A stretch of 64,000 bases of DNA. It comes from Phanerochaete sordida (Eukaryota > Basidiomycota > Agaricomycetes > Polyporales > Phanerochaetaceae). A program made the position numbers and the translations under genes. Shown here piece by piece: positions 2,288 through 53,409 of this stretch (the first letter of the stretch is position 1; every line of letters begins with the position of its first letter). Where the stretch lies: the NCBI GenBank assembly GCA_019973155.2, contig BPQB01000058.1, positions 142,862-206,861 on the forward strand, read 5' to 3'. Below the pieces are notes generated by a model, which was not told the origin of the DNA, made no database searches, and saw nothing but the letters and a program-made list of their open reading frames with translations.

Positions 2288-3928
2288 CTAGATCATGGTG
2301 CTTGCCTCCTGACCCGATGAGCCAGTTTCGTCATTGACGGTATGTTGCTCTAGCTCTGCCGCACTTCCATGGTCCAGGGGCTCTCCGAGGTTTCCGAGAA
2401 ACGTCGATGGTGGCCTGAAGTTAATCGATGAGCCGGTGCCCGATTGGCCCGCGGCAGCTTCATGTTCCTCGGAGTCAGGCCGCCGCAGGTTCATGATGAA
2501 GCGCTGCACGAGCACAGGGGGCTAGAGAGGGGATACACAGTCAGAGCACAGCACACGAGTCACCAGCGTAAACGTTACCATGAATTCGAGGATCTCGTTG
2601 ATATAGCCTCCCTGCGCGCATGTGGTGAACCACGGAGAAATACCAGAGATTGGTGCGCCGACATACCTCGAGACTTGTGGTCTTGGGTGTCGCGGCTTGG
2701 AACGCGTTGATAGCTAAAAGGGCTCTGCGCAAATCAAAACAAGGACCGAGCCATAGCCCAAATAGACTAACATAAAATATAGCGTGCCTGCGGGTATGTC
2801 AGCGCGCTCAGAATACTTTACGATCCGTAATTATGACCGCAAACGCACCGTCTCGGAGAAGGATCGTGGCGACGGATGAGTGGAGTTTCAGACGGCGCAT
2901 GTGCCGGAACTGCTGGAAGGACTGTGCCCATGTCGTGACGAGGACGAGGGCATCGAGGGCAATGGCGCTGGCTCTCGTACCCACGATCACTGTATCGCGT
3001 GTCTGTATGAGCTAGTTATGGGGATTGCTCGGAGGACGCACACCTGCAGCAGTTATGAGAGCTGCGCGGGCGAATCAGCGTCGAAATAAACTTACTTTGT
3101 GGCTAGTGCCGGTGAGACCGTGGTCGTCTGCACACACGACGTTGTCTGCGGCACATGTGTGATTGTAGTTTTTGATACGTTCAGCTGTGCGCAGGCCGTC
3201 ATGAGCGGATGGATATTATGAGTTGGCTGACGTACAATATTTGTTGCGATCGGGACAAGGCCGAGGATACAAATAGCAGCTGGGATGAGATATCTCATGC
3301 GTACGACCAGAAGCAGCGCGTATACGCGCAGAGCCGAGAACACTTGGCATCCAGTCAAGTTCTCGTAGTATAGTAACAAACGAGGAACTCACAGGTAATG
3401 ATAATTAGATTGACGAGAATTAGGATAGTGCTTGTGACGAGCACGGTTTCGCAGCTTTTATATGTGCGGTGTCGACGTGAGACATCACACAAATCGCTAG
3501 TCGCTGGAGAACGTCTACGGAGTTGCCCGCATGTGAGCGTTGTACTCTGGCAGATAGATTATACTTACACCTCGCTTGCGTGGGCAAGGGAATAAATGCA
3601 AGGATGGGCTCGACAACCATGAGCCATCTGGTGATCACCAGGAGAAGCGATACTGCGTTGAGCTTGCGATTCCAAACTATGGACACCTCTTGGTCGAATG
3701 TGATAATATACTCGTAGGCCGCGACCGCTAGTAAAGTGGCAAACTATCAGTGGACGACCTGCGTCGTTGAACATGCAGAAAAGTACCCAGTTGAGCAAAG
3801 GCCACATCCGTGGTGGTGATACTGGCCAGCGAGGTTGATGAGAACGTCAAACATGCGTACATGCCCAAAGGAACAAGAACGTACAGGATATCGACCTGTT
3901 CGGCGAGGTCCGGGGCGCCGCCAGACAT
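2288..3928 (-). CDS. DUF6533 seven-helix membrane protein, copy A
   Basis: Integral membrane protein of the basidiomycete DUF6533 family; the function of the family is unknown. The ATG at 3928 opens MSGGAPDLAEQVDIL. The core exon (about 3725-3570) reads AAYEYIITFDQEVSIVW followed by the helix SLLLVITRWLMVVEPI. Further exons give VFSALRVYALLLVVRMRYLIP (about 3340-3220) and TRASAIALDALVLVTTW ending in TILLRDG (about 2990-2825). The cytoplasmic-like tail has VQRFIMNLRR and FLGNLGEPLDHG. The 16 nt microexon is 2772-2787 and the putative 2 nt exon is GT at 3042-3043. One of only two array members on the minus strand. A TATA box lies 50 bp upstream. No frame break was seen, but the splicing is inferred. 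Confidence 0.82.
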
Positions 3929-3977
3929 TTTACAGTGTAAAGACCGGTCTACAAGGCGGACGGCTTCGGATTGAGGC

Positions 3978-3985
3978 TATATATA
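3978..3985 (-). promoter_or_regulatory. TATA box of DUF6533 copy A
   Basis: TATATATA 50 bp before the start codon at 3928, read on the minus strand. Confidence 0.6.
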
Positions 3986-3989
3986 CGAG

Positions 3990-6130: not shown

Positions 6131-6135
6131 CGCTC

Positions 6136-6141
6136 TATATA
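6136..6141 (+). promoter_or_regulatory. TATA box of DUF6533 copy B
   Basis: TATATA (in CTATATAG) 44 bp before the ATG at 6180. Confidence 0.6.
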
Positions 6142-6179
6142 GTGACCTTGCCCTATCCCAGGGATCGACTACGCAACCC

Positions 6180-8016
6180 ATGTCGGACTCGAGTGATGAG
6201 CTGGTGCAGATCTTACGGACGGTGTGCGTACCGTCTTTCCTTGCATTCCCGTCGCGCTAACCCACCTCGCTATGTCCCCAGACAGCTTGAGGGGTACATC
6301 GGCTGGTCGCTCGTGTGTGCGTCCTCTCTCTGTTCGCGCTCTCTCAGCCGACTGACAGCGCTTGCAGGCCTGCTGATCTACGAGATCGTCATCACGATTG
6401 ACCGCGAGATATCCACCGTCTGGCGGCGCAAGTTCAGCGCGACGTCGCTGCTCCTGCTGAGCACGCGCTGGCTCATGCTCGTGAATCCCGTGTTCGGGGC
6501 ATGGGAAGGACCTGTAGTGTGTACGTCGACTCGCTACCCTCTGCCTTTGGGTACCCGCGCTGACTCGGACCTTTCTTCGTCAGATGTCGCACTGGCCTCC
6601 GAGTCGGCCCTTCGCTGACGCAATGCCGACTTCGTAGATGCAGGCCGCTCTATCTTCTCCGCGGCGTCGCGAACCTGATCGTCACGGCCCTCATCGCGCG
6701 TGAGTCCTCTCCACGCCTGCACATTCCTTCTCTCATCTCGCGCGCAGTGTTCCCAACGCTACGCGTGTACGCATTCTGGAAGGATTCGAAAATCCGGTAC
6801 CTCTTCCCGACCCTCATATGTGTCCTCGGGCTGGTACCGGTCGCTACAAACAGCGTACGCTGTCCCCAATTATAAAACTCAAATTTGATACTGATATTTT
6901 GTAGTTCGTTCTGGCGCGCACCGCGGTCGTGTACGAAGAGACGCCGTACTTCTCCGGCTGCGCATACATGACCGACATCTCGCCCGGCCTGACCACGACG
7001 TGCGTGCGCTTCAAGTTTCCTCGGCCTGGCGAGTTGATGACGCGCTGACACAGTTCTATCTAGGTGTACGTCCTCCGAGATACAGCGGCAGCCATCAGCG
7101 TGCTGACACTTCAACCGACAGTGCTCTACGCTACGCGCTGCAGTGCCATCGCGTCCGACCTCCTCGCAATCGTGCTCACCTGGGTGCGCTCGTATCGGCT
7201 GTTTATCGGCATGCGCAGCGTCCAGAACGGCACGAGTGTCACCGGCGTGCTGCTCCGCGACGGTACGCACTCCCTGCGTTTCAAAGCGGACTTGGCGTCG
7301 CTCACATTAGGCTCGTGTATGACAGGGACTGTGTACTTTGGGTGAGTCGGCTCTCGGCTCTGAACCCACGCGGGACATAGGCTGATACGCTGCATCGTAG
7401 CGCCCTTCTCGTCATCAATATCCTGCAGCTTCTGTCATATTCGACCGCGCTCTCGTCTACACAGGTCCGTCGCCTGAACCACCTCCTACCACCTCTCTGA
7501 CCCTCACGCAGATCAGCTACGCCTCGTCCTTCCTCATTGCCCTCGTACGTCCCGCCCTCCCACTGCTTCTCCTCATCCACTCACCGCTCCCCCATCTAGC
7601 CCCCGCTCCTCATGCAGCGCTTCATGATGAACCTGCGCACGCTCAGCGGCGCGCCGGGCGACACGCGCAGCACGTCCGACGCGCGCCACTTCTCGCGCTT
7701 CTCCGTCAGCTTCCGCGTCCCCGTCGAGTCGGACTTCCTGGGTAATATTGGGGAGCCGCTCGCACCCGAGGGCGAGACGGGGAGTCTGGGATGGGATGGT
7801 GAGGAGGGACTGGGGGATGGGTTTCAGGATGTATTGGAGGAGGGGTTGGAGCAGAAGATGGGTGGACGAGTGGGAGAGGAGGCGGTGGGGCGGGACGTCG
7901 AGAAGCTGGGATATGCGCGGTCTGGCGTGGACGACCCCGATGCGGGAGCTTTCTCGTTTGCTCTGCCGGACGCGAACTCCCAAGAAGACTTCTCGCGGGG
8001 AGCGAAGGCGTTATGA
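6180..8016 (+). CDS. DUF6533 seven-helix membrane protein, copy B
   Basis: Multi-exon DUF6533 family membrane protein. It opens MSDSSDELVQIL. The core exon (about 6369-6520) encodes LLIYEIVITIDREISTVW and the helix LLLLSTRWLMLVNPV. Later exons give LFPTLRVYAFWKDSKIRYLFP, ATRCSAIASDLLAIVLTW and GVLLRDG. The tail exon (from about 7600) has MQRFMMNLRTL and FLGNIGEPL, followed by an unusually long acidic, Gly/Glu-rich extension of about 80 residues that the other copies lack. The putative 2 nt exon is GT at 7064-7065, flanked by introns of about 64 and 56 nt, each with a CTGAC-like branch motif. The 16 nt microexon is 7326-7341. The frame is continuous when spliced this way. Function unknown. Confidence 0.86.
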
Positions 8017-8905: not shown

Positions 8906-8909
8906 TGCG

Positions 8910-8973: not shown

Positions 8974-10761
8974 ATGGACCCCTCCGAGAGCCAGCTCGTG
9001 CAGGTGCTGCAGGCGATGTGAGCACGTCGTCGCCGCGGCTGCGCATGCGCTGACCCCGTCTCTAGCCGCACCGGCGGATACGTCGGCTACTCGCTCCTGT
9101 GTGCGTCCTCTCTGTCCAGCTGTGCTCGTGACGCGTCGGGCTGACACGCCGCCAGGCCTGGTAGCCTACGAGTACATCATCACCTTCGGCCAGGAGGTCG
9201 CCGTGGTGTGGCGGCGGAAGCTGTCCGTCGTCTCCGTGCTTCTGCTCGGCACACGCTGGCTCATGGTCGTCAACCCGCTCATTGGCAACTTCTCTGGCCC
9301 GACGATGTGTGAGCCTGCACGCCTCTCACCCGTTTTCCATGTCTTACCATCCGCATTGTGCAGACGTCCGGTTCTCGTCGCATGGGCTGCGCTGCTGACG
9401 ACGCGTGCAGATGTCGGCCGCTGTACACCCTCACAGTAATCCTGTGGGCGATTATCACGCTTATGATCTCATGTGAGCACCAGTGGGCTCCTTCCGCGCG
9501 CCTACGCTTACCGCCCGCATAGTATTCCCAGCACTGCGCATATATGCGCTCTGGAGGACATCCTGGGTACGCTACATCTTCCCGGCCCTTATTCTTCTGC
9601 TGGGGACGGTCGCAATTGGGACGAACATCGTAGGCTGCATTTACTCACGTCCAAGTGCCGCCATAAGACTGATATTCCCCGAGTTCGGCCTCACTCGCAG
9701 CGTCGTCTCCTACGACCCGGCACTAGACACCTGCGTCCAGAGCACCGTCTTCTCACCCAGCCTCGGCAAAACGTACGCCAACGCACCTCCCATAACGCTC
9801 CCACCCCTGACCCCATCCCCACAGACGTACGTCCCCGAGCGATGTCGGCAGCGCGCGCGCTGACGCCAGCGCCTAGTGCTGTACCTGACGCGGCTCACCA
9901 CGATCGGCGCGGATGTCCTCGTCCTCGTCCTCACCTGGATCCGTTCGTTCACGCTCTTCCGCGAGGCGCGGCGCATCTCGGGCGCGTCGTCGGTCACGGT
10001 GGTCCTCCTGCGAGACGGTGCGTGCCTATCCCACTGCGCGCGTTTTTGGAGCTGACGGGCCGGTGTACTAGGTACCATATACTTCGGGTTAGTTGGCCGG
10101 TGCTACCGTTGGGAACATTCTGGGCTGACGGCAGCGCAGCGCCGTCCTCATCATAAACATCCTGCAGCTCCTAACGTTCACCGCTGCAGCGGGCCTGTCC
10201 ACGGTACGTACACCACCACACTTGACATCTATCTGCCTCACCGACAATATGCGCACAGGCAACATACGCCGTGCCCTTCTTGGAATCACTCGTACGCCCA
10301 CACTCCTCCTCGCGTCATGTCACCAATGACCGACCGCTGACCTGTCCGTACAGCCGCCCCTCCTCATGCAGCGCTGCATGCTCAACCTGCGCACGCTGCA
10401 CAACGCAGGCGGCGACGCCTCCGAGGCGCCCCTCCCGTCGCGCCTCTCGCTCGCCTTCCGCGCGCCGACCCTTCTCGGGGATGCTGGCGGGGAGCTGGAC
10501 TACGGCTACGGGCTGTACAGCGATTTGCCGGGGTTGTCCCAGGATGAGTTGCACGACTTCGACATCTCCGACCCGGGTAGCAGTCTGTCGTCGGAGGGCA
10601 GCGCGTTAAAGTCGCGCGCGCTGCATGCAGAAGAGAGTACCGGCGGCACCGTCCCGCAGAGGTCTCCGCGCTCGTCGCTGCGCTTTGCTATCGAGAGTGG
10701 AGGTCTCGCTGTCAGCTCTGATTCCGCGCCGCATGACGTGGTGTGGGAGTGGGATCCATAG
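8974..10761 (+). CDS. DUF6533 seven-helix membrane protein, copy C
   Basis: DUF6533 family membrane protein, head-to-tail behind copy B. It opens MDPSESQLVQVLQAM, close to copies E and F. A 35 nt second exon encodes RTGGYVGYSLL. The core exon (about 9156-9308) reads LVAYEYIITFGQEVAVVW, then VLLLGTRWLMVVNPLIGNFSG. Later exons: VFPALRIYALWRTSWVRYIFP, LTRLTTIGADVLVLVLTWIRSF and VVLLRDG. The tail has MQRCMLNLRTL (Cys replaces the usual Phe) and a weaker LLGDAGGELDYG. The putative 2 nt exon is AC at 9825-9826, the 16 nt microexon is 10072-10087, and a 33 nt exon encodes ATYAVPFLESL. No frame break seen. Function unknown. Confidence 0.87.
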
Positions 10762-11510: not shown

Positions 11511-13144
11511 ATGGCCGACTCAACCGCTACTATACGTGAGGTGATCGACACCATGTACGACTGTATCTTCTTCCTCATCTCTGGCTTCTGACTGATTTTT
11601 TCTGCGTACGTAGAATACCGGATACTTACGTCGTTTGCTCGGTACTGTGTATGCTATCCTTTACAGCTCTTATCTTCACGTTGCACTAATTTCTCCTTAT
11701 AGGTGTCGCAGTCTACGAGTACATCATAACATTCGACCAAGAAGTCGCTGTGGTCTGGAAGAGACCCTTCACTGCAGCATCTCTGTTGCTGCTAAGCAGT
11801 CGCTGGCTCATGGTTGTGGGCCCAATCATCGCGTTCAGCCCCTCAACCGAGACTTCGTGTGAGCTCCTTCAAGTACAACTAGCTTATAGGCTCTAAACGC
11901 CACTTTATCCAGACGTTGTTCATCACCCGCTGTTGGCGTTACCTCTGACGCCACGGCCATGTGAAGCTGCAGACCTCAAAATATCGCCACCACGCTGGCG
12001 TATCTAACAGTGCTTACGATTGTACCATGTAAGGACCTTTCTCAGCTATACTGCGAGGTCTGATGGCGTATGCGTAGTGGTTTTTGCCCTTCGGATGTGC
12101 GCTATATGGCATGAAACACGGATGAGATACTTGTTCTCTTCCGTCATCATAATCCTCGGTTTGGTACCGCTGAGCGTCAATATTGTGCGTCTCCACATCC
12201 AGAATTATACCGCCCCTTGTGTCCCTGCTGACCTCGATTCTACGACAGCTCGGGGAGGTCCGTACTCAGGTTGAATTTGTGGATCTCCCCGTGGTACCGT
12301 TTTGCGAAAGTCACTCTGAGTTCTCGCTAAAGCTCGGCTTGAGGTGCGTATCAGAATTGCGCAGCTCCATGGCTCGAGGCTAATTAATACCGGAAGACGT
12401 GTGTTTGAAATCTCATGATAAATGCGCGCCACAAAATGTCTTACTTATGTTCACAGTCACGTATGCCGCCAGAGGCTCTACCATTGCTTGTGATATGGTG
12501 GTCCTGGTACTTACATGGATCAAGACGTTCCGCCACTACAGAGAAATGAAGCTGCTTAATATGGGATCCTCGATCTCCTCTTTGCTTATCAGAGACGGTC
12601 CGTCGTCATGGTCGAATTTATTCTTTGAGATACTCATGCAGCGGCATGTTGTACCACTCCAGGCACTGTGTATTTCTGGTAAGCATAAAATCTGGAGGTA
12701 CATATACAAGGGGATTACTCATCAGGGCTTCTGTAGTGTGCTCCTTTGTGTCAACATCTTGCAGCTGGTCACATATACCACCAAGGCTGCATCAACAGCG
12801 GTATGTATATACCTGTGTGTGTGTTGACAAGCATTAAATGTATGGATAACTGCAGGGTAACTATGCGGATACTTATCTTCAGGCAATGGTACCGCATCTC
12901 TCATTGCAGAGGCTTGGATTTTATGTGATAACATGACTGTACACAGCCTCCGTTGCTTATACAGCGCTTTATGCTAAATCTCCGCCAATTCCGCTCGGAG
13001 ACCGGTAGAAGCAGCGACGAAGGGCAGCACGGGATGCAGTCCACTGTTAATTTTGCAGCACCTTCTAGATTCCTCGGAAATATTGGAGAGCCCCTGGACT
13101 ATGGCAAGTCGCAGGATGTAGCGTATGGTGGCGAAGACATATAG
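11511..13144 (+). CDS. DUF6533 seven-helix membrane protein, copy D
   Basis: DUF6533 family membrane protein, opening MADSTATIREVIDTMY. The core exon (about 11702-11859) encodes VAVYEYIITFDQEVAVVW and SLLLLSSRWLMVVGPIIAF. Later exons: ALRMCAIWHETRMRYLFSSVI, RGSTIACDMVVLVLTWIKTF and SLLIRDG, then LLCVNILQLVTYTT. The tail has LIQRFMLNLRQF and FLGNIGEPLDYG. The putative 2 nt exon is AC at 12397-12398 and the 16 nt microexon is 12663-12678. Codon use is less GC-biased than in B, C, E and F. The fourth exon (about 11960-12030) is the least certain. No inactivating change is certain. Function unknown. Confidence 0.78.
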
Positions 13145-15818: not shown

Positions 15819-17541
15819 ATGGACCCGTCCAGCGATGAGATTATGCAGATCCTGCAGCTGATGTACGCCGTCGTACCTCGACGACGCACGATAACGCGTG
15901 CTAATTCCGTCCATACAGACGCACCGGCGGCTACGTGGGCTATTCAGTCATGTGTATGTATTCGTGCGTCTCTGCTTCCTCGTGCTAAGCAATCTTCTCT
16001 TTCTAGGTATTGTTCTGTACGAGCTTGTCATCACAATCAACCAAGAGATTGAGGTCGTCTGGAAGAGAAACTTCACCATCGCCTCGCTGCTGCTCTTGAG
16101 CACACGCTGGCTCATGATTGTCAACCCGATTGTTGGCAATTTCTCGGGCGAGACGATGTGTAAGTCAGCACCGCCTTTCCACCACTCTACAGCGCTCATG
16201 TGCTCTTCCTCAGAAGACCCCCCGCGTCACGCGCGCTCGGAGCTACGCTGAATACACGAACAGATGCAGGCCGCTGTACACCCTGACCATCGTCGTCTAC
16301 GCCGTGATCACGTTCATGGTCTCACGTACGTCCATACTCTTAGCCGTCCAGGCAGCACGAGGCTCATCTTCTGCAGTTTTCCCTGCCCTGCGCATATACG
16401 CGATCTGGAAAGGAACGAAAGTCGGACTGGTCTTCCCTCCAATAATCTTCGCGCTAGGCGCGGTTGCCATCGGGACGAACATCGTGAGCTCCCCCTAATC
16501 TAGGCGATACGCCAGAACGCTGAAGGCTATCGCAGTTCGGCCTCACCCGGAGCACGGTCATGTATGATCCACTGTTTGACACATGTGTTCAGGCGAGCAG
16601 TGTCTCGCCGCATGTCAGCACAATGTACGCGTCTGTGCTACCCTGAGCTCTGCCCTTCGCTCACAAGTGCTCGCAGATGTACGTCTTTCTCTCGGGCCAA
16701 GTCGCCGCGGCCCAGCAAGCAGGTCTTGCTGACACTTGCGCTCAGTGCTCTACCTCACCAGGCTCAGCGCAATTGCTGCTAACGTTCTGGCGCTGGCGCT
16801 CACGTGGATCCGCTCGTTCCGGTACTTGCAGCAGGCGCACCAGCTCCAAGACGGCGGCTCGTCGCTGACTATGATCCTCCTTCGTGATGGTACGGATTCA
16901 AGCCCTCGTGTCTCCTTCGGTCTTCTGACTCACGGTGGTTCTGCTAGGCACAACATACTTCGGGTATGACAGCACGCTTTTTCACGTCACCATCATCTCA
17001 TTCCCACTCAAGTGCGCTCCTCGTCATCGACATCCTCCAGCTGGTCACATTCACCGCCGCATCTAACCTCTCTATGGTACGCCTGCCTCCTCCCGCGCAG
17101 CGCGCCCAGCTGAACGCCACGCCCAGCCGACATACGTCGTGCCCTTCCTAGACTCCCTGGTACGCCCTCCCCATCCCTCATCTCTGCATCCGCCCCCGCT
17201 GACGCAGCCCGCAGCCCGCGCTGCTCACGCAGCGCTTCATGCTCAACCTGCGCCAGCTGCGCGGCACGCGCGACGCCGCGGACACCGCGCCCGCGTCGCG
17301 CCTCACGCTCAGCTTCCGCACGCCCACGGGCTTCCTCGGGAACGCCGGCGAGGACCTCGATTATGGGAGCTATGAGGAGGAGGAGGATGGGACGCTCGGG
17401 GGTGGGGGGTACCAGGGTTCGATTCGGCGGTCGCGGTCAAGGCTTGATGGGGAGGCGAAAGCTGCGGGTGCGGATGGGCTGGAGGCTGGTTGTTCAAATG
17501 GTGATTTTGTGTCGGCTTCTGGGCACGTCCTGGCGATATGA
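15819..17541 (+). CDS. DUF6533 seven-helix membrane protein, copy E
   Basis: DUF6533 family membrane protein of about 350 aa, the closest relative of copy F in the duplicated unit. It opens MDPSSDEIMQILQLM, then RTGGYVGYSVM in a 35 nt exon. The core exon (about 16008-16159) encodes VLYELVITINQEIEVVWKRN, then LLLLSTRWLMIVNPIVGNFSG. Later exons: FPALRIYAIWKGTKVGLVFPP, LTRLSAIAANVLALALTWIRSF, MILLRDG and LLVIDILQLVTFTAA, then a 33 nt exon PTYVVPFLDSL. The tail has LTQRFMLNLRQLRG and FLGNAGEDLDYG. The putative 2 nt exon is AT at 16677-16678 and the 16 nt microexon is 16948-16963. About 12 exons; the frame is intact. Function unknown. Confidence 0.9.
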
Positions 17542-20038: not shown

Positions 20039-21760
20039 ATGGACCCGTCCACCGATGAGATTTTGCAGATTTTGCAGCTGATGTACGCGGTCGTACCTCA
20101 ACGACGCACGATAACGCGTGCTGACTCCGTCCACACAGACGCACCGGCGGCTACGTGGGCTATTCAGTCATGTGTATGTGCTCGTGCACATCTGCGTCCT
20201 CGCGCTAAGCAATGTTCCCTCTCTAGGTCTTGTTCTGTACGAGCTTGTCATCACAATCAACCAAGAAATCGAGGTCGTCTGGAAGAGAAAGTTTACCATC
20301 ACCTCGCTGCTGCTCTTGAGTACCCGCTGGCTTATGATAGTCAACCCGATTGTTGGCAATTTTTCGGGCGAGACGATGTGTGAGTCAGTCTCGTCGAACC
20401 ACCATTTCTGCAGCACTCAGACGATCTTCTTCAGAAGACGTTCCACGTCGAGCGCGCTCAGAGCTGCACTGAATACATGAACAGATGCAGACCGCTGTAT
20501 ACTCTGACCATTATTATCTACGCAGTGATAACGTTCATGGTCTCACGTACGTCCATACTCTTTGCCGTCCAGGCGACACGAGGCTCATCTTCTGCAGTCT
20601 TCCCCGCCCTACGCATCTACGCGATCTGGAAAGAAACGAAAATCGGACTGGTCTTTCCTCCAATAATATTCCTGCTCGGCGCGGTCGCCATCGGGACGAA
20701 CATCGTGAGCCTCGCGGAGCCAGACCTTGCGCCAGAGCGCTGATAGCCACCGCAGTTCGACCTCACCCGGAGCACGGTTATGTACGACCCGGTGCTCGAT
20801 ACCTGCGTCCAGGCCAGCAGATATTCGCTGCATGTTAGCACAATGTACGCGTCTGTGCTACCCTGCGCACTGCTCGTCGCTCACAGCTGCCCGCAGATGT
20901 ATGCCATTTTCTCTGGCCAAGTTACCGTGGCTGCGGAAACCAGGCCTTGCTGACACTTGCGCCCAGTACTCTACCTGACCAGGCCCACCGCAATCGCCGC
21001 TAACGTTCTGGCGCTGGTGCTCACCTGGATGCGCTCATTCCGGCACTTGCGACAGGTGCACCAGCTTCAAGACGACGGCACATCGCTGACAGTGGTGCTA
21101 TTGCGAGACGGTACGACTCTTCGCCTTCGTGTACGCCTCGGTCGTCTGACTCGCGGTTGGTCCGCTAGGCACAACGTACTTCGGGTACGGCAGCATGTTT
21201 CTTCGTCGTCGCTATCTCATCTACTCCTCCAGTGCGCTCCTCGTCATCGACATCCTCCAGCTAGTCACGTTCACCGCTGCGACTAGTATCTCCATGGTAC
21301 GCCTGCCTCTGTCCGCAAGCCACGCATAAGTAAAGTAACTCGCACAGCCGACCTACGTGGCGCCGTTCCTGGACACGCTGGTACGCCAGCCCCAGCCCTC
21401 CCCAGCCACCCACGCTGACGCCTCCCGCAGCCCGCCTTGCTCACACAGCGCTTCATGCTCAACCTGCGCCAGCTCCACGGCACGCGGGACACCGCGGACA
21501 CCGCGCCCGTCTCGCGCCTCACGCTCAGCTTCCGCGCGCCGACAGACCTCCTCGGGAACGCCGGCGAGGATCTAGATTATGGGAGCTACGATGAGCGTGG
21601 CTCAGACGGTACGCTAGAGCGCGGTGGGTACCAGGGTTCGGGTGAGCGGCCGCTGTCGACGCTGGGAGAGGAGCCGAAGTCTGCGAGCGCGGATGGCTTG
21701 GAGGGCGGCTGCTCGAATGGTGACGGCGTACCAGGTTCTGGTGCCGTACTGGCGATATGA
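20039..21760 (+). CDS. DUF6533 seven-helix membrane protein, copy F
   Basis: DUF6533 family membrane protein, best-resolved member. Exons of roughly 44, 35, 154, 64, 104, 92, 2, 120, 16, 66, 33 and 331 nt give about 350 aa. It opens MDPSTDEILQILQLM. The core exon (about 20228-20379) reads VLYELVITINQEIEVVWKRK, then LLLLSTRWLMIVNPIVGNFSG. Then come LYTLTIIIYAVITFMVS, FPALRIYAIWKETKIGLVFPP, FDLTRSTVMYDPVLDTCVQ, LTRPTAIAANVLALVLTWMRSF, VVLLRDG and LLVIDILQLVTFTAA. The tail has LTQRFMLNLRQLHG and LLGNAGEDLDYG. The 2 nt exon is AT at 20897-20898 and the microexon is 21169-21184. Sequence and spacing show a recent duplicate of copy E. Function unknown. Confidence 0.9.
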
Positions 21761-27929: not shown

Positions 27930-29533
27930 TCACGCTGGCAGCCCTCGCCCCAGCGCGTAACACTCGCCATAGTCGTCGTCGTCCTCCGGCCCCTCCGCCG
28001 GCCCGTGCTCGAGCGGCTCGCCGATATTGCCCAGGAAACTCGGTGGCGGCGCCCGGAAGCACAGCGGGCGCAGCTCCGGCGCGCCCGCGCAGCTGCTTGC
28101 GCTCGCCTCGCCCGGCGCGCGCGTGAGCTGGCGCAGGTTCAGCATGAAGCGCTGCACGAGCAGCGGCGGCTGCGTGCCGTCAGTATCAGCGCGCGTGCGA
28201 GCGTATGGGGAGGAGGGGCGTACGAGGTAGAGCATGAAGATGTTGGAGTAGCTGCCCTAAGAGAGCGTGAGTGTGGGGAGAAGCACGGGGAGGAGGGGAG
28301 GCGCACCCCGACGGCCGTCGTGTTGTACGTCAGCAGCTGGCAGAGGTTGATCACGAGCATGATTCTGCGCTCGTCAGCACATCCTCCGCATCACTCTGAC
28401 ACCACTCACACAAAATACAGCGTCCCTAGCGCACGACCCAGCCATCGTCAGCACGCGCGGAACAACAGTATGCACAGGACGCACCGTCGCGCAGCAGGAT
28501 CGTCGTGACAGACGACGCCATGCGCAGCCTGCGCATCTCGCGGAAGTGCTCGTACGACTTCACCCACGTCGTCCCGAGCACGAGCGCTTCGAGCGCGATC
28601 GCGCTCGTCGTCGCCGTGTACAGCACTACCTCCAGAACCCTATCAGCGGCGCACGCCCCGCACTACACAAGTACGCACGTCTGCGGCGGGTGAGCGCGGG
28701 GAGGAGGGAGGAGGGAGGACGGGGCAGGCGCACCTGGTCTCGAGCGCCTCCGAGAGCGCGATGACGGTGTACCCGCCGGGCGGGACGGGCACGAGCGTCG
28801 TGCGCGCCCACTTGTACTTCGCTACCATCAGCCGTGCGCCCCTTCCCAGAAATAAAGCCTCACGGTGTTCGTCGCGACGGGCACGAGGCCGAGCGCGCCG
28901 ACGAGCGCGGGCACGGCGTAGCGCAGGCGCCCGCGCAGCAGGATGGCGTAGACGCGCAGCGCGGAGAAGGCTGTTGAGTGGTGAGATGGGAGGTGGGAGG
29001 GAGGGCGGGAGGGAGAGGGCGTACCGGCGACGACGGTCAGGCTGAGGGCGTACGTGATGACGGTGAGGCGCCAGATGCCTTCGAAGCTTGTGCGCGGACG
29101 TCAGCGAGTGCCGCGGCCTACGCCCAAACGTACGTCTGCTCGGCACGAGATGTCAGCGACAAGCGTCGTTACCAGCGGGCATACACTCACACCGCGCGAC
29201 AGACGTAATCGGGATATTCCCCGCGATGGGTCCGAGCAGCATGAGCCAGCGGCTCACGAGCAGCATGGCCGACGGCGCGGTGGGCCGGCGCCGCCACACG
29301 ACGTCGACCTCGCGGTCGAGCGTGACGGCGTACTCGTACACGACGAGCGCTGCGCGCGCGTGAGTCCTCCACATTTTTGGTGCGCGGCGGCGGGACGCAC
29401 TGAGCATGGCGACGAGCACGCATTCCTCGACGAAGCTGCGTTGGTGTCAGTGAGAGCGCGACGGGTGCGGGGAGAGGGCGTACTTTTCTTCGGCGGCCTC
29501 CACGGCGCTGTGGTACGGGGCGTACGAGGACAT
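27930..29533 (-). CDS. DUF6533 seven-helix membrane protein, copy G
   Basis: DUF6533 family membrane protein on the minus strand, in a very GC-rich stretch. It opens MSSYAPYHSAVEAAEEK at 29533. The core exon (about 29355-29205) reads VVYEYAVTLDREVDVVWRRR, then LLVSRWLMLLGPIAGNIP. Later exons: FSALRVYAILLRGRLRYAVPA, TSAIALEALVLGTTWVKSYEHF and TILLRDG. The tail has LVQRFMLNLRQLT and FLGNIGEPLEHG. The putative 2 nt exon is AC at 28679-28680, the 16 nt microexon is 28410-28425, and a 33 nt exon encodes GSYSNIFMLYL. The frame is intact with this splicing. The opposite orientation implies a local inversion or inverted duplication. Function unknown. Confidence 0.84.
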
Positions 29534-33741: not shown

Positions 33742-33928
33742 GTCGAAGGGGCAGTGATGGAGGAGACACACACTGTCCAGGCTACCCAAAATTATTTTCG
33801 TAGGCGGCGTCCTGGCGCGCGGAATAAGGCTGATATTTCGGCCGAGAGGATGCGCTGCAACTACATTTATTGCGCAGAACCCGACACAGACAATCTAGCG
33901 ACAGCAATCGCGGGACATGAACTACAAT

Positions 33929-38203: not shown

Positions 38204-39904
38204 ATGGCTACACCACCCGCCGAGCTGCAGGACATCAGAGATGCGTACGACGTCTTCACTTGGCAGCTTCGTGTGCCGCGTCTGATATGTGAGATGTAGC
38301 GTCACGGACTACTATATCGCCTGCTCGCTATTCGGTGCGCTCTTCAAAGAGCATGTCCTGGCCGGGCCTCGCTGACGCACGTTTCTAGCCTTGATGGTGT
38401 ACGAGTACATCACGACGTTCGACCAAGAGGTCGCCGTTGTCTGGGGGCGGAAGTTCTCTGCCACATCGGTCCTGCTGCTGGGAAGCCGTTGGCTCATGGT
38501 TGTGTTTGCATACCTCGTGTTTTACCCCGGGCCCGCCAAGTGTAAGTTCCCGGATATTCGGCTGGCATCGTCTCATCCAACTAACGCCTATACCCAGACG
38601 TCATATCACCGTTGCTCTCTGACGCTCAGGCTGACGCTCCAGGGACAATCTGCAAGCTGTCGCGACGAGTTCACAGCGCTCGGGGCCATCTTTATCACCG
38701 TGCTGATCGTCGTCCCGCGTGAGTGCTGCTGAGCCCTGCTACACGTCGTCTGACTGGCTGCCCCAGTGTTCTCCGCTCTGCGCGTTTACGCCATATGGAA
38801 AGCGTCGAGCTGGAGCTATGTGTTCTTCTTCAGCACGCTCCTGCTCGGACTTGCCCCAGTGGGCGCAAACGTCGTGCGTTTCGTCGCTGAGCATCACCCC
38901 GCTATTGTCCCAGGATGCGTGTGTGCTGATTCAATGGCAGTTCGGCTGGGTCCGGACGGAGATATCATACGTCGACGTCCCCGTGCTGCAGAGCCAGTGC
39001 GTCTACTCCATCAACGTCTCGCAGACGCACAGACAAGAGTATGTCAAGAGGTGTAGCTGCGTGAGGCAATGTTGATCTCTTCTCGCAGATGTACGTCCGT
39101 CTACAAACCTCTGCTCGACGGAGCTCAACAGGCCGTGTAGTGCTGTACATCACCCGAGGCTCGGCAATCACCTCCGACCTGTTAGTCCTGGTGCTTACCT
39201 GGGCCAAGACGTTCGGCCATTTCAGAGAGATGCAGCGGCTCAACATCGGCTCCTCCGTCTCCTCCATTCTTATTAAAAACGGTATGGACATCTCGTCTCT
39301 GTACAGCTCATGGACGCTCATGCCTATTCCAGGGACCATTTATTTCATGTACGCCGAGAATAACTCTATTCCCTCATGCGCTAGACCGATGACATCGCGC
39401 TTTGTAGTGCACTTCTCTGCATCAACATCCTGCAGCTCGTGACCTATAGCAGTAACGCGGTGGTAGGCACGCCACTTCCCACACCAGCCAAAACACTGAA
39501 CGCGAAGCACTGTCCCAGTCGAACTACGCCGAAAACTACCTCCAGCTACTGGTACATCAGTCTCCTCCATGCAAGACCAGTGCTGACGACCGCGCCTGTC
39601 CCAGCCCCTGCTTCTCATCGAACGCTTCATGCTGAACCTCCGACGGCTCAGCCCCGGTAGCAGTACCGGCTACTCCGAGTCGCACCCGACCGCGCTGTCC
39701 TCCGTAGATTTCAGAGCCCCATCGGGCCTGTTCGGCGACCTCGGCGAGCCGCTGGAGCATGGACAGTCGCTCGACGTCGACGAGGGCGGCGGCGGCGATG
39801 CTAGCACAGGCGCTGCCGAAGACGACCTGGAATATTCGTTGCAGGATGCGGAGGCTGGACGGAATGGAGTGGCGTCACCTGTGGAGGCGGATGACGCAGC
39901 TTGA
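38204..39904 (+). CDS. DUF6533 seven-helix membrane protein, copy H
   Basis: DUF6533 family membrane protein. It opens MATPPAELQDIRDA, and a 35 nt second exon follows. The core exon (about 38390-38541) reads LMVYEYITTFDQEVAVVWGR, then LLLGSRWLMVVFAYLVFYPG. Later exons: FSALRVYAIWKASSWSYVFFF, TRGSAITSDLLVLVLTWAKTF and SSILIKNG (LIKNG instead of LLRDG). The tail has LIERFMLNLRRL (Glu for Gln), LFGDLGEPLEHG, and a Gly/Asp-rich end. The putative 2 nt exon is AT at 39089-39090 and the 16 nt microexon is 39333-39348. Unlike its relatives it has no clear TATA box 45-90 bp upstream. Frame intact. Function unknown. Confidence 0.83.
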
Positions 39905-40529: not shown

Positions 40530-42159
40530 ATGGCAGACTCCACGGAAGAGACACGACTCGCATTCGAAGCGTTGTGAGTGTCGGACCATCACGAATTACA
40601 TACACTCGCTGTGGCTAACCCTGATATCAGCTTAGCTAGCGATTATACGGCGTGCGCACTGACAAGTACATATTTTTGGTCGCAATAAGCGGTCCCACGC
40701 ACCGCTCACGCGCCCCACAGGTCTTGTCTGCTATGAGTACATCATCACCTTTTGCCAAGAGATAGACTGCGTGTGGAAGCGGCCGTTAAACGCTACCTCG
40801 CTGCTGCTCCTCTCGACGCGCTGGGTCATGGTAGTCAGCCAGCTCCTCTGGCACCCTGTGTCAAGCGATTCCCAGTGTACGCTCTATCATGTCTAGTACA
40901 AGACGAGAATTCAGACTGACCTCGCTCGACGCATCGCCAGACGTCACGTCCGTTCCTCCTTGCCGAGCTCTGTTTCACCAGGGACGAAAACTGCTTTACA
41001 GGTGCCAGCTATGGGCCTATGTGAACTACACCCTCATTCTAGTGACGTGGGCCCAGATTGCCTGTAAGCTCGCAGGTCTTCGCCTTCAAACCGTCTGACA
41101 GAGAGCCGCAGTATTCTCTGGGCTGCGAGTATACGCGATTTGGCGCAGGTCCAGCTTTCGCTACCTCATTTTTCTGACGGTCGTTGGCTTTGGCTGCATC
41201 CCTATAGCCACGAACTCGGTACGTCATGCTCGTGGCTATATCCCTCTGCCATTGAACCAGCAGCTTCCTGCCAGTTCGCACTGTCTCGTATCCAAGCAGT
41301 CTACGAGGGTTCACCTATTGGCAACTGCGCGGATGTTGTAAACGTCTCGGACAGTATGAACACCATGTATGTCGCCGGTGTAGTGACCTCAGCACAGCAG
41401 AACTGACCACGTGTTTATCAACCGCGCAGAAGTGCGTATGACCGCGCCTTACTCCCTGGGATCGCAATGACGCGCTCATTCGCAGTGCTATACCTGACAA
41501 GAAGCAGCGTGATTGCAGCCGACGTGCTGGTTCTCGTCCTGACATGGATCAAAACATTCGTACACTGGCGTCAGCTGCGCCAGATCGGTATCAAGCACTC
41601 AATTTCGGCCCTGCTCCTTCGTGACGGTATTTACACCTCCCTGTCTACCGTATCGATATGCACCTGATACAGGGGCACGAAAATAGGCACTGTGTATTTT
41701 TCGTCAGTCATTATATCCCTGGCCGTGCAGAACGCACTACTCACACACGTTGAAGAATACTCTTAGCCCTGAACGTCACACAAATTCTGACTTACGTCCT
41801 ACCAAGCGCAAATGTGGTGTGTCACAGCTATATATTACCGCGTAGCTCCTCGTTCAAGTCATTTACAGGCTCCAGACATCACCAGCGCTCTACTAATTAC
41901 CATGGTGCGTGCCAGGTACAAGGCTATGGTCCTCAGACTCATTGCGTCCTCGCAGCCACCCGTACTCATTCAGCGGTTCATGCTGAACCTGCGATCATTC
42001 GATATCTGTGCAGACCTGTCTACATCAGGCGATCATCGTCTTTCCGCGGACCTGTCAGTGCAATTCAGGAGACCGAGTAGCTTCCTAGGGAATATTGGGG
42101 AGTCTGTGGATATCGGTGAAGATGGCGAGGGCATAGCTGATACAGAATATCGGGAGTGA
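40530..42159 (+). CDS. DUF6533 seven-helix membrane protein, copy I
   Basis: DUF6533 family membrane protein, opening MADSTEETRLAFEAL. The core exon (about 40722-40877) reads VCYEYIITFCQEIDCVWKRP, then LLLLSTRWVMVVSQLLWHP; Cys replaces the Asp of the usual TFDQE. Later exons: FSGLRVYAIWRRSSFRYLIFL, TRSSVIAADVLVLVLTWIKTF and ALLLRDG. The tail has LIQRFMLNLRSF and FLGNIGESVDIG. The putative 2 nt exon is AA at 41430-41431, with ACTGAC and AATGAC branch-like motifs in the flanking introns. The 16 nt microexon is 41687-41702. Frame intact when so spliced. Function unknown. Confidence 0.82.
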
Positions 42160-42237
42160 TTGTAGCATAAGTGGCTATATTGCTGCCTATGGCCGAAATG
42201 CAGTGTCATCGTCATATAGCTAGCCAAAGTCCCCATA

Positions 42238-42845: not shown

Positions 42846-42850
42846 AGTCG

Positions 42851-45276: not shown

Positions 45277-46933
45277 ATGTCTCATCTGTCTGCAGAAGAC
45301 GTACAAACAACGTGTGCACTCCTCTCCTCTACGTGCGCATATTCTGGTCGCCCTCGCTAATTCTTTGTTACTCGTTTAGCATTATTTCCAACTGCGTGGC
45401 CGTCTCTCTGATAAGTATGACTTGGCCATACCTCGACGAGCGACATTATTGCTAATTACTTCGTTCTAATCAGCTCTTGTTGCCTACGAATATGTACTGA
45501 CAGCCGCTCAAGTGTACTGCGTTGTATGGCACCGCAGATTTACCGCAGCGTCGCTCCTTCTGCTGGGCAGCAGATATCTTATGCTGGTGGGGCCTGTTGT
45601 CCCTCTGCTTACTGTCTTGTCGCAAACAGGGTGTAAGCAATTCGTTCTTTCTGGATGTGGCGACGTTATTAATAAACAAATGCTCCCCTAGATGTACGAC
45701 TCCCTAGTCCGTGACTTTATAGGCTCATAGCTTCACTCCGTCTCCCAAAGCTGCCAGGCAGTATGGATTCTGGGTATGGTTTTATGTGCCGCTAATCAAG
45801 CTGTCATCACCCGTGAGTCTTTCTGCCATACATGAGTGACAGCACACTGATATGTGATCAAGTATTCTCTGCTCTTCGCATATATGCAATATTGGGGCAT
45901 GAGCGAATGCGGTATATCATAACAGCTACGATTATTATCCTAGGTTCTACTCCAATTGGAGCAAATATTGTAAGCCCTTTGGCCACCCGAAGTACTCGCA
46001 TAGACCACTGACTTGCTCTAACATACTTGCAGATCGTCTGGTCCCATCAAACAGTTCATTTACAGTCCCAGCTGGCTATATGCACCAAAACTACCACAAT
46101 GTCTGCCTCTTTGGATAAAACGTATGCTATTCCTCTACGTCCTCGTGCAAGGCCTCTCATTACCATTCCAGATGTACATCTGTCATTCCTAATTGATTTT
46201 GGGTAACAGCAGGCTGACGGACGCATCTGCCAGTCCATCTGCTCACGAGAATTGCGTACATCGTCGTTGATGCAATCGTACTGGGGGTTACATGGGCAAA
46301 ATCGTTTCGCCACTTCCAGGAGATGAGACGTTTGAATCTCACTTCGTCCGTCGCGAATATCCTTCTCCGAGATGGTTGGTGCCCACCTGCAGTTTCCTAT
46401 GGTAGACTCATTATAAAACGATGATAGGGACACTGTGTTTTATGTCAGCGTTACTGTTCCAGCAGCGAATCTGCCGCTCATTTTCCGCAGAGCTCTGCTG
46501 GCCATGAACATATCGCAAGCATATACGGGCACCGCTCCTAATGTAGGCTTCACGTTAGCACCTCAGATCCCTCCATGCATTAATTTTGTTCATCCAGGGA
46601 AACTATGTGGACAGCCTTCTCGACTGGCTGGTCAGCTGCATTTCGACGCGCTATATAACAAGTTTTCTCTGACCGTTTTTTTTTCTACTGTAGCCTCCTC
46701 TGCTGGTGCAACGCTTCATGCTAAACCTCAGATATCTCAATCAGAAGCCCAACGAGACCGCTACAGCTCTAATTCCATCGCTTCCCCGATTCTCAACCGA
46801 TCTTAGAGCGCAGTCGAGCTTCCTTGGGAATATCGGGGAGCCCCTGGAGCACGTACAGGCCAAAAATCCGGAGGACGGATTGAATGATTGTCAATCAGGT
46901 GCCTCGATACATAATCTACGAGACGTGGTGTAG
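45277..46933 (+). CDS. DUF6533 seven-helix membrane protein, copy J (divergent core)
   Basis: DUF6533 family membrane protein, opening MSHLSAEDVQTTCA. The core exon (about 45473-45633) reads LVAYEYVLTAAQVYCVVWHRR, then LLLLGSRYLMLVGPVVP; the usual TFDQE is replaced by TAAQV, the strongest departure in the array. Later exons: FSALRIYAILGHERMRYIITA, LTRIAYIVVDAIVLGVTWAKSF and NILLRDG. The tail has LVQRFMLNLRYL and FLGNIGEPLEHV. The putative 2 nt exon is AT at 46172-46173 and the 16 nt microexon is 46428-46443. The frame is kept, so it is called a gene, though relaxed constraint is possible. Function unknown. Confidence 0.74.
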
Positions 46934-49238: not shown

Positions 49239-49275
49239 AAACGCCACCAAGCTCCCGGTAATCACCGGCACCGCT
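49239..49275. repeat. Dispersed repeat, copy 2
   Basis: CGCCACCAAGCTCCCGGTA followed by ATCACCGGCACCG, similar to 30985-31025. Confidence 0.5.
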
Positions 49276-50426: not shown

Positions 50427-50480
50427 TAAGCTTTGACGAGTATGCGATAGGCTTTGACGAGTATGCGATAGACTTTGACG
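50427..50480. repeat. Short tandem repeat, about 21 bp unit
   Basis: About 2.5 copies of a unit containing GCGATAGGCTTTGACGAG (GCGATAAGC, GCGATAGGC and GCGATAGAC variants). It would translate on the minus strand as repeated AYRILVK. Confidence 0.7.
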
Positions 50481-51703
50481 AGGCGGCTACAGCTGTGAGG
50501 TCTCGCGCAGATTACGCACGGTAGCGCAGATCGTAGGGGCATCGGCATCTGATGTCAACTCCCGAGAACGCCTTCGACGTCTTGTTCCACCTCGACATGC
50601 ATGCGGTGCATTGGATATGTACGTGGTCAAGTTTGCTCTGTTCCACGCCCGATCAAGATACTATCTCGCCTCGTGCTCCCTTCTATTATCCGTTCACCGT
50701 CCACGTCGGTGAGTGGGCTATACCTGCCGGAGTTAAATGGGCTCGTCTGGCAGATGTATGATGCCATGCGAGCCGTGTGGATGCTGGTGTAGCATCTGTT
50801 GAGTCTCGGGCTTCCTTCACGTCCAACATGACATCATATCATGACAACGGAACGTGCTGGACGTATGATTACGCCCAGGCTGGGCCAGTAGCGTCCCCTC
50901 AACACCAAGGTGATGCCTCGCATCTCACGTACATCATGATCCTGTAGGAAATGGAATAATAGGATGCAAGCCGTCAGATAGTGCGCTGTACATCACGATA
51001 TTAGCTTTCATTATGGTGGGAGATTCCACTGCGCATGTTCTGAGCTCCCATCCCGGCACAGGTGCGCTGGCACCCCAATCGCAATGCCACACGCTAGTCA
51101 GGACGGGGAGTGCTCTACATCCAATGCACAATCTGCATCTTCGCATGGGAGGAGATTCCTACTACAGCTCCGCCGAAACCGTGCGATTGAGATGATACCA
51201 TAGAAGTTGATCATTTGATTCAAAGTTTTGGCATTATGACAGGTGAAAGGTACATTTGACAGACCTGCAAACGATTGGTATCGACCCAATCGTCCTACGA
51301 CTGTTCTTGAAGATGACAGGAGGAGAACAAACGGGCATGCACGCTGAGACGTTCACGCCACGTTGTACGTCTTGCGCACAGTGAAGTACCTTACCTTCCT
51401 CAGCACCTCAACCAAGATAGTGAACAAGGTGAGCTCATGTAGCTTGCTGGGAGGATGCCGAGACTCATTTGGGCGTGTTGGAAGGTCTGGACAGAGAAAC
51501 GATGACTCCGTATACCTAGCATGAGCCTGCGGGAAGCTTGTACCCTCTGTCGCAACTATCAGGTCAGTGCAAAAGACCCAGGTATCTCATCGCGTCTTCT
51601 AGGAAGGATCCCTAGGAAACTGTCTGCGACACTGACTCGGAAGATGTTATCCTTCCGGTCATCAGGCAACTGCGTGTAATGCAGTGCTAGCCCGCGTGAG
51701 CCC

Positions 51704-51709
51704 TATAAG
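51704..51709 (+). promoter_or_regulatory. TATA box of DUF6533 copy K
   Basis: TATAAG 51 bp before the ATG at 51755. Confidence 0.6.
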
Positions 51710-51754
51710 TACTCTGTATACCACCTCACGCTTTCTATATTACACTTCGAAATC

Positions 51755-53409
51755 ATGTCCCAACTCTCCGCAGCGGATGCTCAGACCATGTAAGTGCCGG
51801 TTTCCTGTGATGCTCTCGGCATGTCTTCTGACGCCTTGATCGAACGTTGCACGCAGTCTCGTGAGCAACTACGTAGCTATCTCTCAACTCGGTACAGTTG
51901 GGCCTGCGTACGAACGATCCGCCCGCTCACTACCGTGACCTATGGCAGCCCTCTGCGTCTATGAATATGCCATGACATTTGATCAAGAAATAGCCGCAGT
52001 GTGGAGGCGCAAACGTACAGCAGCTTCGCTCCTGTTGCTGAGTAGCAGATGGATTATGATATTGGGGCAAGCAGTAATCTTTACTCCAGGGATATCCTGG
52101 ACAAGGTGTGAGTCAACATCACAACGGTGTAGACAAGTTCAACAATCTAATAAATCAACAAATGAACGTCTTCCGCTAGGCCTTCTCTAACCACCCTCGA
52201 GATTTGCATTATTCCCTTACCGGCGTCGCTATTGTATGATTTACAGCTGCCGAGCTAGCTTCATTCTACAAGATTTCACATTCGCAGGCGGTCAGGTCGT
52301 GATGACCTGTGAGTTTCGTTGCCATACCTGGCTCACAAAGCTCTGATCTTGAACCAGTATTCTCGGCTTTGCGAGTGCATGCTATCCTACTGCAGGATCG
52401 GGGCACGTATGCCATTCCTATGATTGTCGTCATCCTCGGCACTGTCCCACTCGCAACAAATCTCGTAAGCACGGCATTTGGACCACATGTCAGTCCCACG
52501 CTCAGCTTCACCTACACACAGTTTGGCTGGATACGTTCAGAGATTGTGTGGGCAGACGAATCTGCTTGTGAAAGCATACACACATTTTCTGAGCAACTGA
52601 ATAAAACGTAGGAGTGCGTTTCACATAGGGTCACCAGGCTATTTCTTATCACTGTTTCAGGAGTACGTCCGCAATCTACGCATGAAGCAGTCTCAAGGAG
52701 CCAGTAGCATAGTGCTCTTGCTCACGCGAATAAGTGCTATCGCCCTGGACGCTATCGTCTTGGCAGCAACGTGGACAAAGTCCTTTCAGCACTTCCGCGA
52801 GATGAGACGCGTAAACCTCAAGTCTTCCGTTACCAATGTATTACTCCGGGATGGTGTGTGTTCAGGCTACATAACGCCTCTCTTGGACGTGCTCAGCCGT
52901 TGGGATGGTTTTAGGAACACTTTACTTTGCGTAAGGGAGGCCTTCATGACGAGAATCCTCGGCTGATCATGACAGATCTCTTCTCGCTATCAACATAATT
53001 CAAATCCTGACGTTCAGCAACAACCTCTTCTTTGTAACTCCGTCCAATCGTGCGAAGATTCTCAAAGTGCTGACTATGTACACATAGTCGGACTATATGA
53101 CCTTCATATTGCAATCCCTGGTAGCGAATTTATTACCTACGCGGACTGCATTGCTTCTAAATACTTCTCCTCTAGCCGATTTTGTTGGTACAGCGCTTTA
53201 TGCTGAACCTGAGACAGATCAATCGGCAAGCTACTGAAAGCAGCGCAGCAGCGGGCCTACCGGGCTTCCATCTCAGCTTCAGGACCCAACCGGAATTCCT
53301 CGGAAATCTCGGCGAGCCTCTGGAGCACGGAAGAGTCGAAGAGCCGGAGGACTACGTGGACGAGGAGGGGCATAGCGAACCAGCACAGGAGGCGCACACC
53401 TCAGACTAG
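51755..53409 (+). CDS. DUF6533 seven-helix membrane protein, copy K
   Basis: Last member of the array; DUF6533 family membrane protein, opening MSQLSAADAQTM. The core exon (about 51948-52107) reads LCVYEYAMTFDQEIAAVWRRK, then LLLLSSRWIMILGQAVIFTPG. Later exons: FSALRVHAILLQDRGTYAIPM, LTRISAIALDAIVLAATWTKSF and NVLLRDG, then LLAINIIQILTFSNN. The tail has LVQRFMLNLRQI, FLGNLGEPLEHG and an acidic end. The putative 2 nt exon is GA at 52661-52662 and the 16 nt microexon is 52915-52930. Its N-terminus (MSQLSAADAQT) resembles copy J (MSHLSAEDVQT), its neighbour, suggesting tandem duplication. Function unknown. Confidence 0.83.

Follow-up and report, generated by a model that had tools for sequence, protein, structure and literature searches.

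The stretch analyzed here, referred to as the window, comprises 64,000 nucleotides (nt) of the Phanerochaete sordida genome (bases 142862-206861, contig C58) and contains eleven DUF6533 genes, W01-W11. The DNA sequence of these genes, and of nearly every well-aligned family member examined, indicates that they very probably carry a coding exon of only two nucleotides (NN), with a phase-2 intron before it and a phase-1 intron after it, each about 53 nt long; the site is in the loop that connects helices 4 and 5. All eleven window genes exceed the curated cut-off for DUF6533 (PF20151), and the 40.8 megabase genome yields 150 scored matches to this family among 203 candidates. Ninety-one loci were worked on, consisting of the window genes and 80 of the other 139 matches, together with one further gene (C86 gene, C86:8658-10128).

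Gene models were produced with a purpose-written spliced protein-to-DNA aligner that sets no minimum exon length. The non-circular test used an outside profile of four proteins from beyond the genome (P0001-P0004). The other queries were one made from W08 and profiles built from the family itself, and for one alignment run the splice matrices were retrained on 353 other introns.

The original prediction placed AG/NN/GT (slashes denote splice boundaries) at eleven positions in the window, and all eleven are present with the exact bases and strands. It proposed a 2-nt exon in every gene, and both the outside profile and the W08 query return a phase-2 intron, 2 nt and a phase-1 intron in 11 of 11. 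The flanking introns, expected at about 50-70 nt, measure 50-68 nt in all eleven genes (family profiles). The description of the site needs a small correction: in a structure model, the segment ahead of it is the loop between helices 4 and 5, and the "next helix" is helix 5. With retrained splice matrices the exon was kept in 10 of the 11 genes (W11 lost), and with the family profiles in all of them. In the W08-query alignment the second intron of W11 was terminated early, at 38 nt. The predicted features are given below, where exon A precedes intron 1 and exon B follows intron 2. For six genes the predicted spliced junction is included, and its letters match the window.

W01: 3042..3043, minus strand, 2-nt exon GT; intron 1 3095-3044, intron 2 3041-2990; exon A 3184-3096, exon B 2989-2849.
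W02: 7064..7065, plus strand, 2-nt exon GT; intron 1 7000-7063, intron 2 7066-7121; exon A 6905-6999, exon B 7122-7262.
W03: 9825..9826, plus strand, 2-nt exon AC; intron 1 9773-9824, intron 2 9827-9876; exon A 9684-9772, exon B 9877-10017; junction CGGCAAAAC-AC-TGCTGTACCTG.
W04: 12397..12398, plus strand, 2-nt exon AC; intron 1 12344-12396, intron 2 12399-12456; exon A 12249-12343, exon B 12457-12597.
W05: 16677..16678, plus strand, 2-nt exon AT; intron 1 16625-16676, intron 2 16679-16745; exon A 16536-16624, exon B 16746-16889; junction CACAAT-AT-TGCTCTACCTC.
W06: 20897..20898, plus strand, 2-nt exon AT; intron 1 20845-20896, intron 2 20899-20966; exon A 20756-20844, exon B 20967-21110.
W07: 28679..28680, minus strand, 2-nt exon AC; intron 1 28733-28681, intron 2 28678-28626; exon A 28816-28734, exon B 28625-28485.
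W08: 39089..39090, plus strand, 2-nt exon AT; intron 1 39039-39088, intron 2 39091-39140; exon A 38941-39038, exon B 39141-39281; junction AGACAAGA-AT-TGCTGTACATC.
W09: 41430..41431, plus strand, 2-nt exon AA; intron 1 41367-41429, intron 2 41432-41485 (54 nt); exon A 41275-41366, exon B 41486-41626; junction GAACACCAT-AA-TGCTATACCTG.
W10: 46172..46173, plus strand, 2-nt exon AT; intron 1 46122-46171, intron 2 46174-46233 (donor GTACAT); exon A 46033-46121, exon B 46234-46374; junction GGATAAAAC-AT-TCCATCTGCTC.
W11: 52661..52662, plus strand, 2-nt exon GA; intron 1 52608-52660 (weak donor GTAGGA), intron 2 52663-52712; exon A 52522-52607, exon B 52713-52853; junction GAATAAAAC-GA-TGCTCTTGCTC.

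Homology sets the reading frame of each flanking exon, and in 60 of 60 genes the two frames lie two bases apart; exon A joined straight to exon B therefore cannot hold the frame. With NN included the frame is open in all 60, which extends to the family the claim that two added bases restore it. The first base, N1, would complete the last codon of the loop exon, and the second, N2, would open the first codon of the helix-5 exon, which encodes mostly Leu, Phe or Met (L30 F12 M10 S4 I2 T1 Y1). N2 is G in a single case out of 60 (0/60 in the family-profile set), compared with 48% G at the last exon base of 353 ordinary introns.

Chance occurrence was assessed with 60 tandem-intron intervals from 57 loci that had been picked because they show the 2-nt parse. 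Of these intervals, 48 contain YAG-N2-GTRNGY with neither intron shorter than 40 nt, against 0.3/60 in dinucleotide shuffles. At other spacings from 0 to 15, YAG-N-GTRNGY has counts of 0-2 each. If any GT is accepted as donor the counts are 54 at N2, 41 at N6 and 11 at N0 versus approximately 3-4 in shuffles, the N6 peak representing the second GT of GTNNGT. The introns on either side have median lengths of 53 and 54 nt, with donors and acceptors of ordinary consensus. CTGAC-like branch motifs are present as predicted but are not special, CTRAY occurring in 37/60 first and 27/60 second introns and in 160/353 ordinary ones. Donors following NN average 7.34 bits, compared with 6.48 for 317 ordinary donors (p = 3.7e-4), and first-intron donors are likewise stronger than ordinary, both here and at a second site in loop 1 that is described below.

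Across the 91 loci, the outside profile chose a 2-nt exon in 57, made up of 42 of the 48 scoring at least 150 and 15 of the 43 below, and the retrained matrices chose one in 56. When the donor after NN was forbidden in these 56 loci, the best alternative, often another tiny exon or a shifted junction, was 1.2 to 27.9 bits worse (median 11). The family profiles gave 60 microexons of 2 nt, five of 8 nt (L011, L014, L034, L037, L047; example TGCGAATC) and 26 loci without a call, counts that are partly circular because the profiles derive from models already having the 2-nt parse. Both lengths equal 2 modulo 3. Among the 63 models scoring at least 190 the microexon site was called automatically in 60 and by eye in the other three. 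Inspection of the uncalled loci by eye assigned 2 nt to L054, L061 and L064, and 8 nt to L041 and L074. Approximately 13 of the 26 belong, judged by exon lengths, to a subfamily with different intron positions that has no introns at the helix 4-5 site in the models inspected; because the loop of this subfamily is of another length, the subfamily cannot be used to date the change at the site. From its sequence L059, where the alignment is poor, may have lost the second intron. L025 and L087 were considered as fused forms arising from intron loss and rejected, as both read AG/CC/GT with introns on either side. The intron after a 2-nt exon AC is of GC-AG type in L040 (GCAGGT) and L064 (GCAAGT, by eye).

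Lengths of neighboring exons (62, 98 or 107, 141, 16) are kept over diverged loci. Carrier proteins share a median identity of 27%, and pairwise identity of their introns (median 0.73, 300 sampled pairs) is close to that of shuffled sequences (0.71). With introns saturated and proteins this divergent, recent copying is no explanation for the shared site.

Intron-free relatives agree with the 2-nt exon. P0001 is a 345-residue open frame on a 1336-base contig, and its P. sordida counterpart, the C86 gene, has eleven introns in the first 250 residues, including at the helix 4-5 site a 51-nt intron, AC and a 56-nt intron. Alignment of the two is gapless through the site (...NNA-LLYFTRG) only with the 2-nt exon AC. 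The public model of the C86 gene, P0015 (PsYK624_145520), joins the exons directly and loses the frame at that codon. P0033, a 336-residue open frame on a 1904-base contig, is identical to the L013 model at 255 of 324 positions, without a gap across either of two 2-nt exons in L013: GC at the helix 4-5 site, and TG in loop 1, which yields the matching Trp (TG+G) of ESWC. None of the intron-free frames on short contigs (P0001, P0004, P0033) has an insertion at the site. P0001 and P0033 are probably transcripts, given their long intron-free frames on short contigs, and even as retrocopies they would display the mature product.

Two further public models from P. sordida depart at these sites: P0084 (PsYK624_123660) leaves the frame at loop 1, and P0006 (PsYK624_125490), the model of W09, keeps intron 2 in frame and gains 18 extra residues. 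The public models P0011 and P0013 also shift frame, retain an intron or lose homology at 2-nt exons. At the junction the P. carnosa models P0005, P0017 and P0055 read x-[C/R]-M-F; decoded as NN + GTATGTTY, this motif hints at the same AG/NN/GTATGT site in P. carnosa. Some P. carnosa models have from a few to approximately 12 extra residues at the junction.

Several observations weigh against a 2-nt exon, or against parts of the account given here. The exons are predictions from DNA sequence, and the family-profile counts are, as stated, partly circular. Direct joining misreads exon B in 60/60 genes, yet the wrong frame is stop-free over the approximately 120 nt tested in 35 of them, so missing stops alone would not decide the matter. 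In-frame, stop-free intron retention is possible in 13/60 genes, W09 included. A few loci show a small bit margin when the donor after NN is forbidden (minimum 1.2), and of the 26 loci that the family profiles left uncalled, seven are still uncalled after inspection. If either 2-nt exon of L013 is forbidden, alignment to P0033 retains 254/324 identities, at the cost of a longer intron, extra residues and a score 20-24 bits lower. The status of P0001 and P0033 as transcripts is inferred, and both come from other organisms, at approximately 63-84% identity. Finally, in loop 1 the donor that follows the 2-nt exon shows no excess strength over ordinary donors (p = 0.91); together with the stronger first donors, this leaves compensation by the donor after NN weakly supported.

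The alternative that survives best accepts the 2-nt exon but has it alternatively spliced, with skipping acting as an off-switch. Skipping always shifts the frame, with the first stop at a median distance of 46 codons if reading continues into genomic DNA, and a regulated microexon has been published for Trichoderma Xlr2 (PMC11121469, an excerpt of which was used). The donors are strong rather than weak, which argues against regulated skipping; we consider it unlikely and infer that use of the exon is constitutive. Much less probable is that one intron is normally retained, or that the NN exon extends into intron 2, to give a longer loop. P0006 and the longer P. carnosa models would fit this, as would the 13 genes in which retention is in frame and stop-free, but it is impossible in the other 47, intron 2 has ordinary splice signals, and the intron-free relatives lack any insertion.

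It is harder still to credit a single GC-AG intron of approximately 110 nt whose donor has slid 2 nt downstream and so supplies the two bases. The original prediction stated that no single intron can join the flanking exons in frame. This holds for 47 of the 60 genes, which have no intron of the exact length; the other 13, including W02, W04 and W07, do have one with GC at +2, but always with a poor GCG... donor. Such an intron would be double the usual 54 nt, and AG/NN/GT would be conserved for nothing. Decaying paralogues or faulty assembly, in which a chance AG-NN-GT seems to mend the damage, are just as implausible, for although the family is large and tandem-repeated and several public models are broken or shortened here, the frames are open with NN in all 60 genes, the motif greatly exceeds its expected count, neighboring exon lengths are kept and the intron-free relatives agree.

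A constitutive 2-nt exon at the helix 4-5 site could be spliced by ordinary means. Both flanking introns would be ordinary short U2-type introns recognized by intron definition, which suffices given that each has full signals and a length of about 53 nt. They would be removed one after the other, in either order, since two spliceosomes cannot occupy two bases together. Of the "recursive or stepwise" splicing originally suggested, the one-after-other removal is thus needed, but recursion is not required, because both introns carry complete ordinary signals. Zero-nucleotide recursive splicing, as in Drosophila and vertebrates, works stepwise at an adjoining acceptor and donor, retains nothing and operates in very long introns. 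Stepwise removal is common to both systems; in P. sordida two coding bases stay and the introns are about 53 nt. The helix 4-5 site is neither a zero-nucleotide recursive site (AG/GT), as two bases are needed for the frame, nor a stwintron, as two retained bases are required in 60/60 genes. Stronger-than-average donors may offset the missing exon context, and this branch of the family probably inherited the 2-nt exon from its ancestor.

A 2-nt exon flanked by introns of phases 0 and 2 is also present in loop 1, where helix 3 begins, in 38 of the 91 loci (carriers include L009, L013, L018, L029, L032, L057, L065 and L068). Other microexon lengths at this position are 5 nt (L088), 8 nt (L084) and 11 nt (one locus). 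Both 2-nt exons, in loop 1 and in the helix 4-5 loop, are found together in 26 loci. The window genes have in loop 1 an intervening stretch of approximately 100-135 nt, and in most of them an AG in its middle precedes ACGT or a similar word. A plain 2-nt exon was rejected for these genes, since it agreed neither with the frame nor with the weakness of the donors after AC.

The loop-1 stretch of the window genes can be read as a [D2,3] stwintron, E1/GT{GTRNGY...AG}ACGT...AG/E3, in which removal of the internal intron rebuilds the donor GTACGT, GTATGT or GTAAGA in 10 of the 11 genes. In these ten, exon 3 is 62 nt and the frame is open in 10/10, the acceptors of W07, W08 and W10 having been picked to give an exon 3 of 62 nt and the open frame then checked. 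A Cys follows the stwintron in nine of the ten (not W07). The rebuilt-donor score of this reading was attained by shuffles in 0.18 of 10. The loop-1 stretch of W11 (52106-52246) is long, and its rebuilt donor, GT+GCCT, is poor (2.9 bits). The predicted stwintrons are listed in the order donor GT, internal intron, remainder.

W01: 3455..3570, minus strand, [D2,3] stwintron; GT 3570-3569, internal intron 3568-3515, remainder 3514-3455.
W02: 6519..6637, plus strand, [D2,3] stwintron; GT 6519-6520, internal intron 6521-6583, remainder 6584-6637.
W03: 9307..9410, plus strand, [D2,3] stwintron; GT 9307-9308, internal intron 9309-9363, remainder 9364-9410.
W04: 11857..11966, plus strand, [D2,3] stwintron; GT 11857-11858, internal intron 11859-11912, remainder 11913-11966.
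W05: 16158..16263, plus strand, [D2,3] stwintron; GT 16158-16159, internal intron 16160-16213, remainder 16214-16263; rebuilt donor GTAAGA.
W06: 20378..20484, plus strand, [D2,3] stwintron; GT 20378-20379, internal intron 20380-20434, remainder 20435-20484; rebuilt donor GTAAGA.
W07: 29087..29192, minus strand, [D2,3] stwintron; GT 29192-29191, internal intron 29190-29136, remainder 29135-29087.
W08: 38540..38656, plus strand, [D2,3] stwintron; GT 38540-38541, internal intron 38542-38597, remainder 38598-38656.
W09: 40875..41001, plus strand, [D2,3] stwintron; GT 40875-40876, internal intron 40877-40940, remainder 40941-41001.
W10: 45631..45750, plus strand, [D2,3] stwintron; GT 45631-45632, internal intron 45633-45691, remainder 45692-45750.

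A fair rebuilt donor is also present in L051, L056, L070, L078, L084 and L086 (L084 can alternatively be read with the 8-nt exon noted above). Loop 1 of the C86 gene is GT{GTAAGT...TAG}ACGT, and P0001 indicates that no bases are retained there. In these genes, strictly ordered, donor-rebuilding splicing is predicted for the loop-1 stwintron and not for the helix 4-5 site.

The two loop-1 forms, X/intron/NN/GTACGT for the 2-nt exon and XNN/GT{intron}ACGT for the stwintron, differ by a shift of the upstream intron by 4 bases. In a host intron X-NN/GTACGT, a second intron placed 2 nt upstream of the donor would generate a 2-nt exon, and one placed 4 bases further downstream a [D2,3] stwintron. 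The upstream intron of the window clade would occupy the latter position, within the donor of the second intron, and its removal would rebuild GT/ACGT. The RNA after the first splicing step is identical in both forms, so the shift could be neutral. On a tree of 63 models the loop-1 states require 15 changes compared with 31.4 when shuffled, with ten rows unclassified and 25 of 60 inner branches weak. The 15 stwintron genes are grouped (4 changes versus 13.6 shuffled) and have near relatives with 2-nt exons, again with many weak branches. Given the weak branches and unclassified rows, the tree gives no direction for the loop-1 change. We lean slightly towards the view that a single site can change between the 2-nt exon and the [D2,3] stwintron as interchangeable states, and that the family presents a route between tandem and nested introns, taken across dozens of paralogues.

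Among the DUF6533 proteins compared, a Cys at the start of helix 3 and another in the helix 4-5 hairpin are nearly invariant. A structure model of P0033 has seven predicted helices resembling receptors; Ste2, a class D GPCR, leads after re-alignment, with weak Foldseek scores. Elsewhere in the window, open frames with CxC5 and CxC6 cysteine clusters (KDZ transposase-associated) lie between the receptor-like genes at 31547-33789 (minus strand). An open frame matching peptidase A4 is found at 42212-42937 (minus strand), and one matching an AA9 family enzyme at 57991-58563 (plus strand).

If the 2-nt exons are real, much of the very large DUF6533 family is likely to be mis-annotated by programs that bar such short exons. 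Among the public models examined, three (P0015, P0084 and P0006) either lose the frame or retain an intron precisely there. SNB1, a member of the family, is required for mushroom development (PMC10949477, excerpted), which makes accurate models important for functional work. With varied bases and donors, the at least 60 carriers would be natural replicates for studying two-base joining, splicing order and the gain of introns beside old ones. The loop-1 site ties microexons to stwintrons, and how the latter arise is a subject of current study.

In the open-licence literature searched, no report using the wording "2-nt exon" was found, and no case of a basidiomycete stwintron was found in the same literature, as far as the excerpts of it extend. 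The comparisons that follow likewise draw on excerpts of the papers cited. In Phanerochaete chrysosporium P450 genes, introns are often 45-55 bp and the shortest exon is 6 bp (PMC1184071); these genes share the genus and very small exons with those described here, and differ in the 6 bp minimum. Stwintrons of the [D2,3] type were defined for the bioDA gene, where splicing was shown (PMC5639578). As in loop 1 of the window genes, the internal intron lies between donor bases 2 and 3 and the donor is rebuilt after the first splice. The bioDA case is from an ascomycete, whereas the present one comes from a basidiomycete, is based on sequence and includes paralogues in which that codon carries a 2-nt exon instead. 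Stwintron types apart from [D1,2] are reported to have been met rarely (PMC12403724), and in Lipomyces small donor duplications (4-7 nt) have been proposed to create stwintrons (PMC7138796).

Exons of 1 nt have been published for the plant genes APC11 (PMC4674806) and VPS55 (PMC8831610), and consecutive removal of the two introns was proposed for Arabidopsis APC11 (PMC4674806). Like the exons described here, these are ultra-short conserved coding exons between two ordinary introns that annotation overlooked, and strong donors were also noted for VPS55 (PMC8831610). They differ in being 1 nt long, in belonging to two plant gene families and in having been shown with RNA, whereas in P. sordida the exons are 2 nt and one family has at least 60 carriers. 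A fungal 1-nt exon with supporting RNA reads is known from the Fusarium CYP621A P450 genes (PMC12940212, which also cites exons of 2-5 bp elsewhere), and the argument there is the same, consisting of a phase conflict, a double-length intron, AG/N/GT and an intron-free relative. That case concerns one orthologous ascomycete gene with an identical candidate, AGGGT, throughout, in contrast to the variable bases, the large paralogous family and the two such exons in 26/91 loci of P. sordida. Family-wide 2-nt exons, two per gene in those 26 loci, would be the first case known to us. Compared with the known 1-nt exons, they are set apart by their number, their variability, their pairing within genes and their link to stwintrons.

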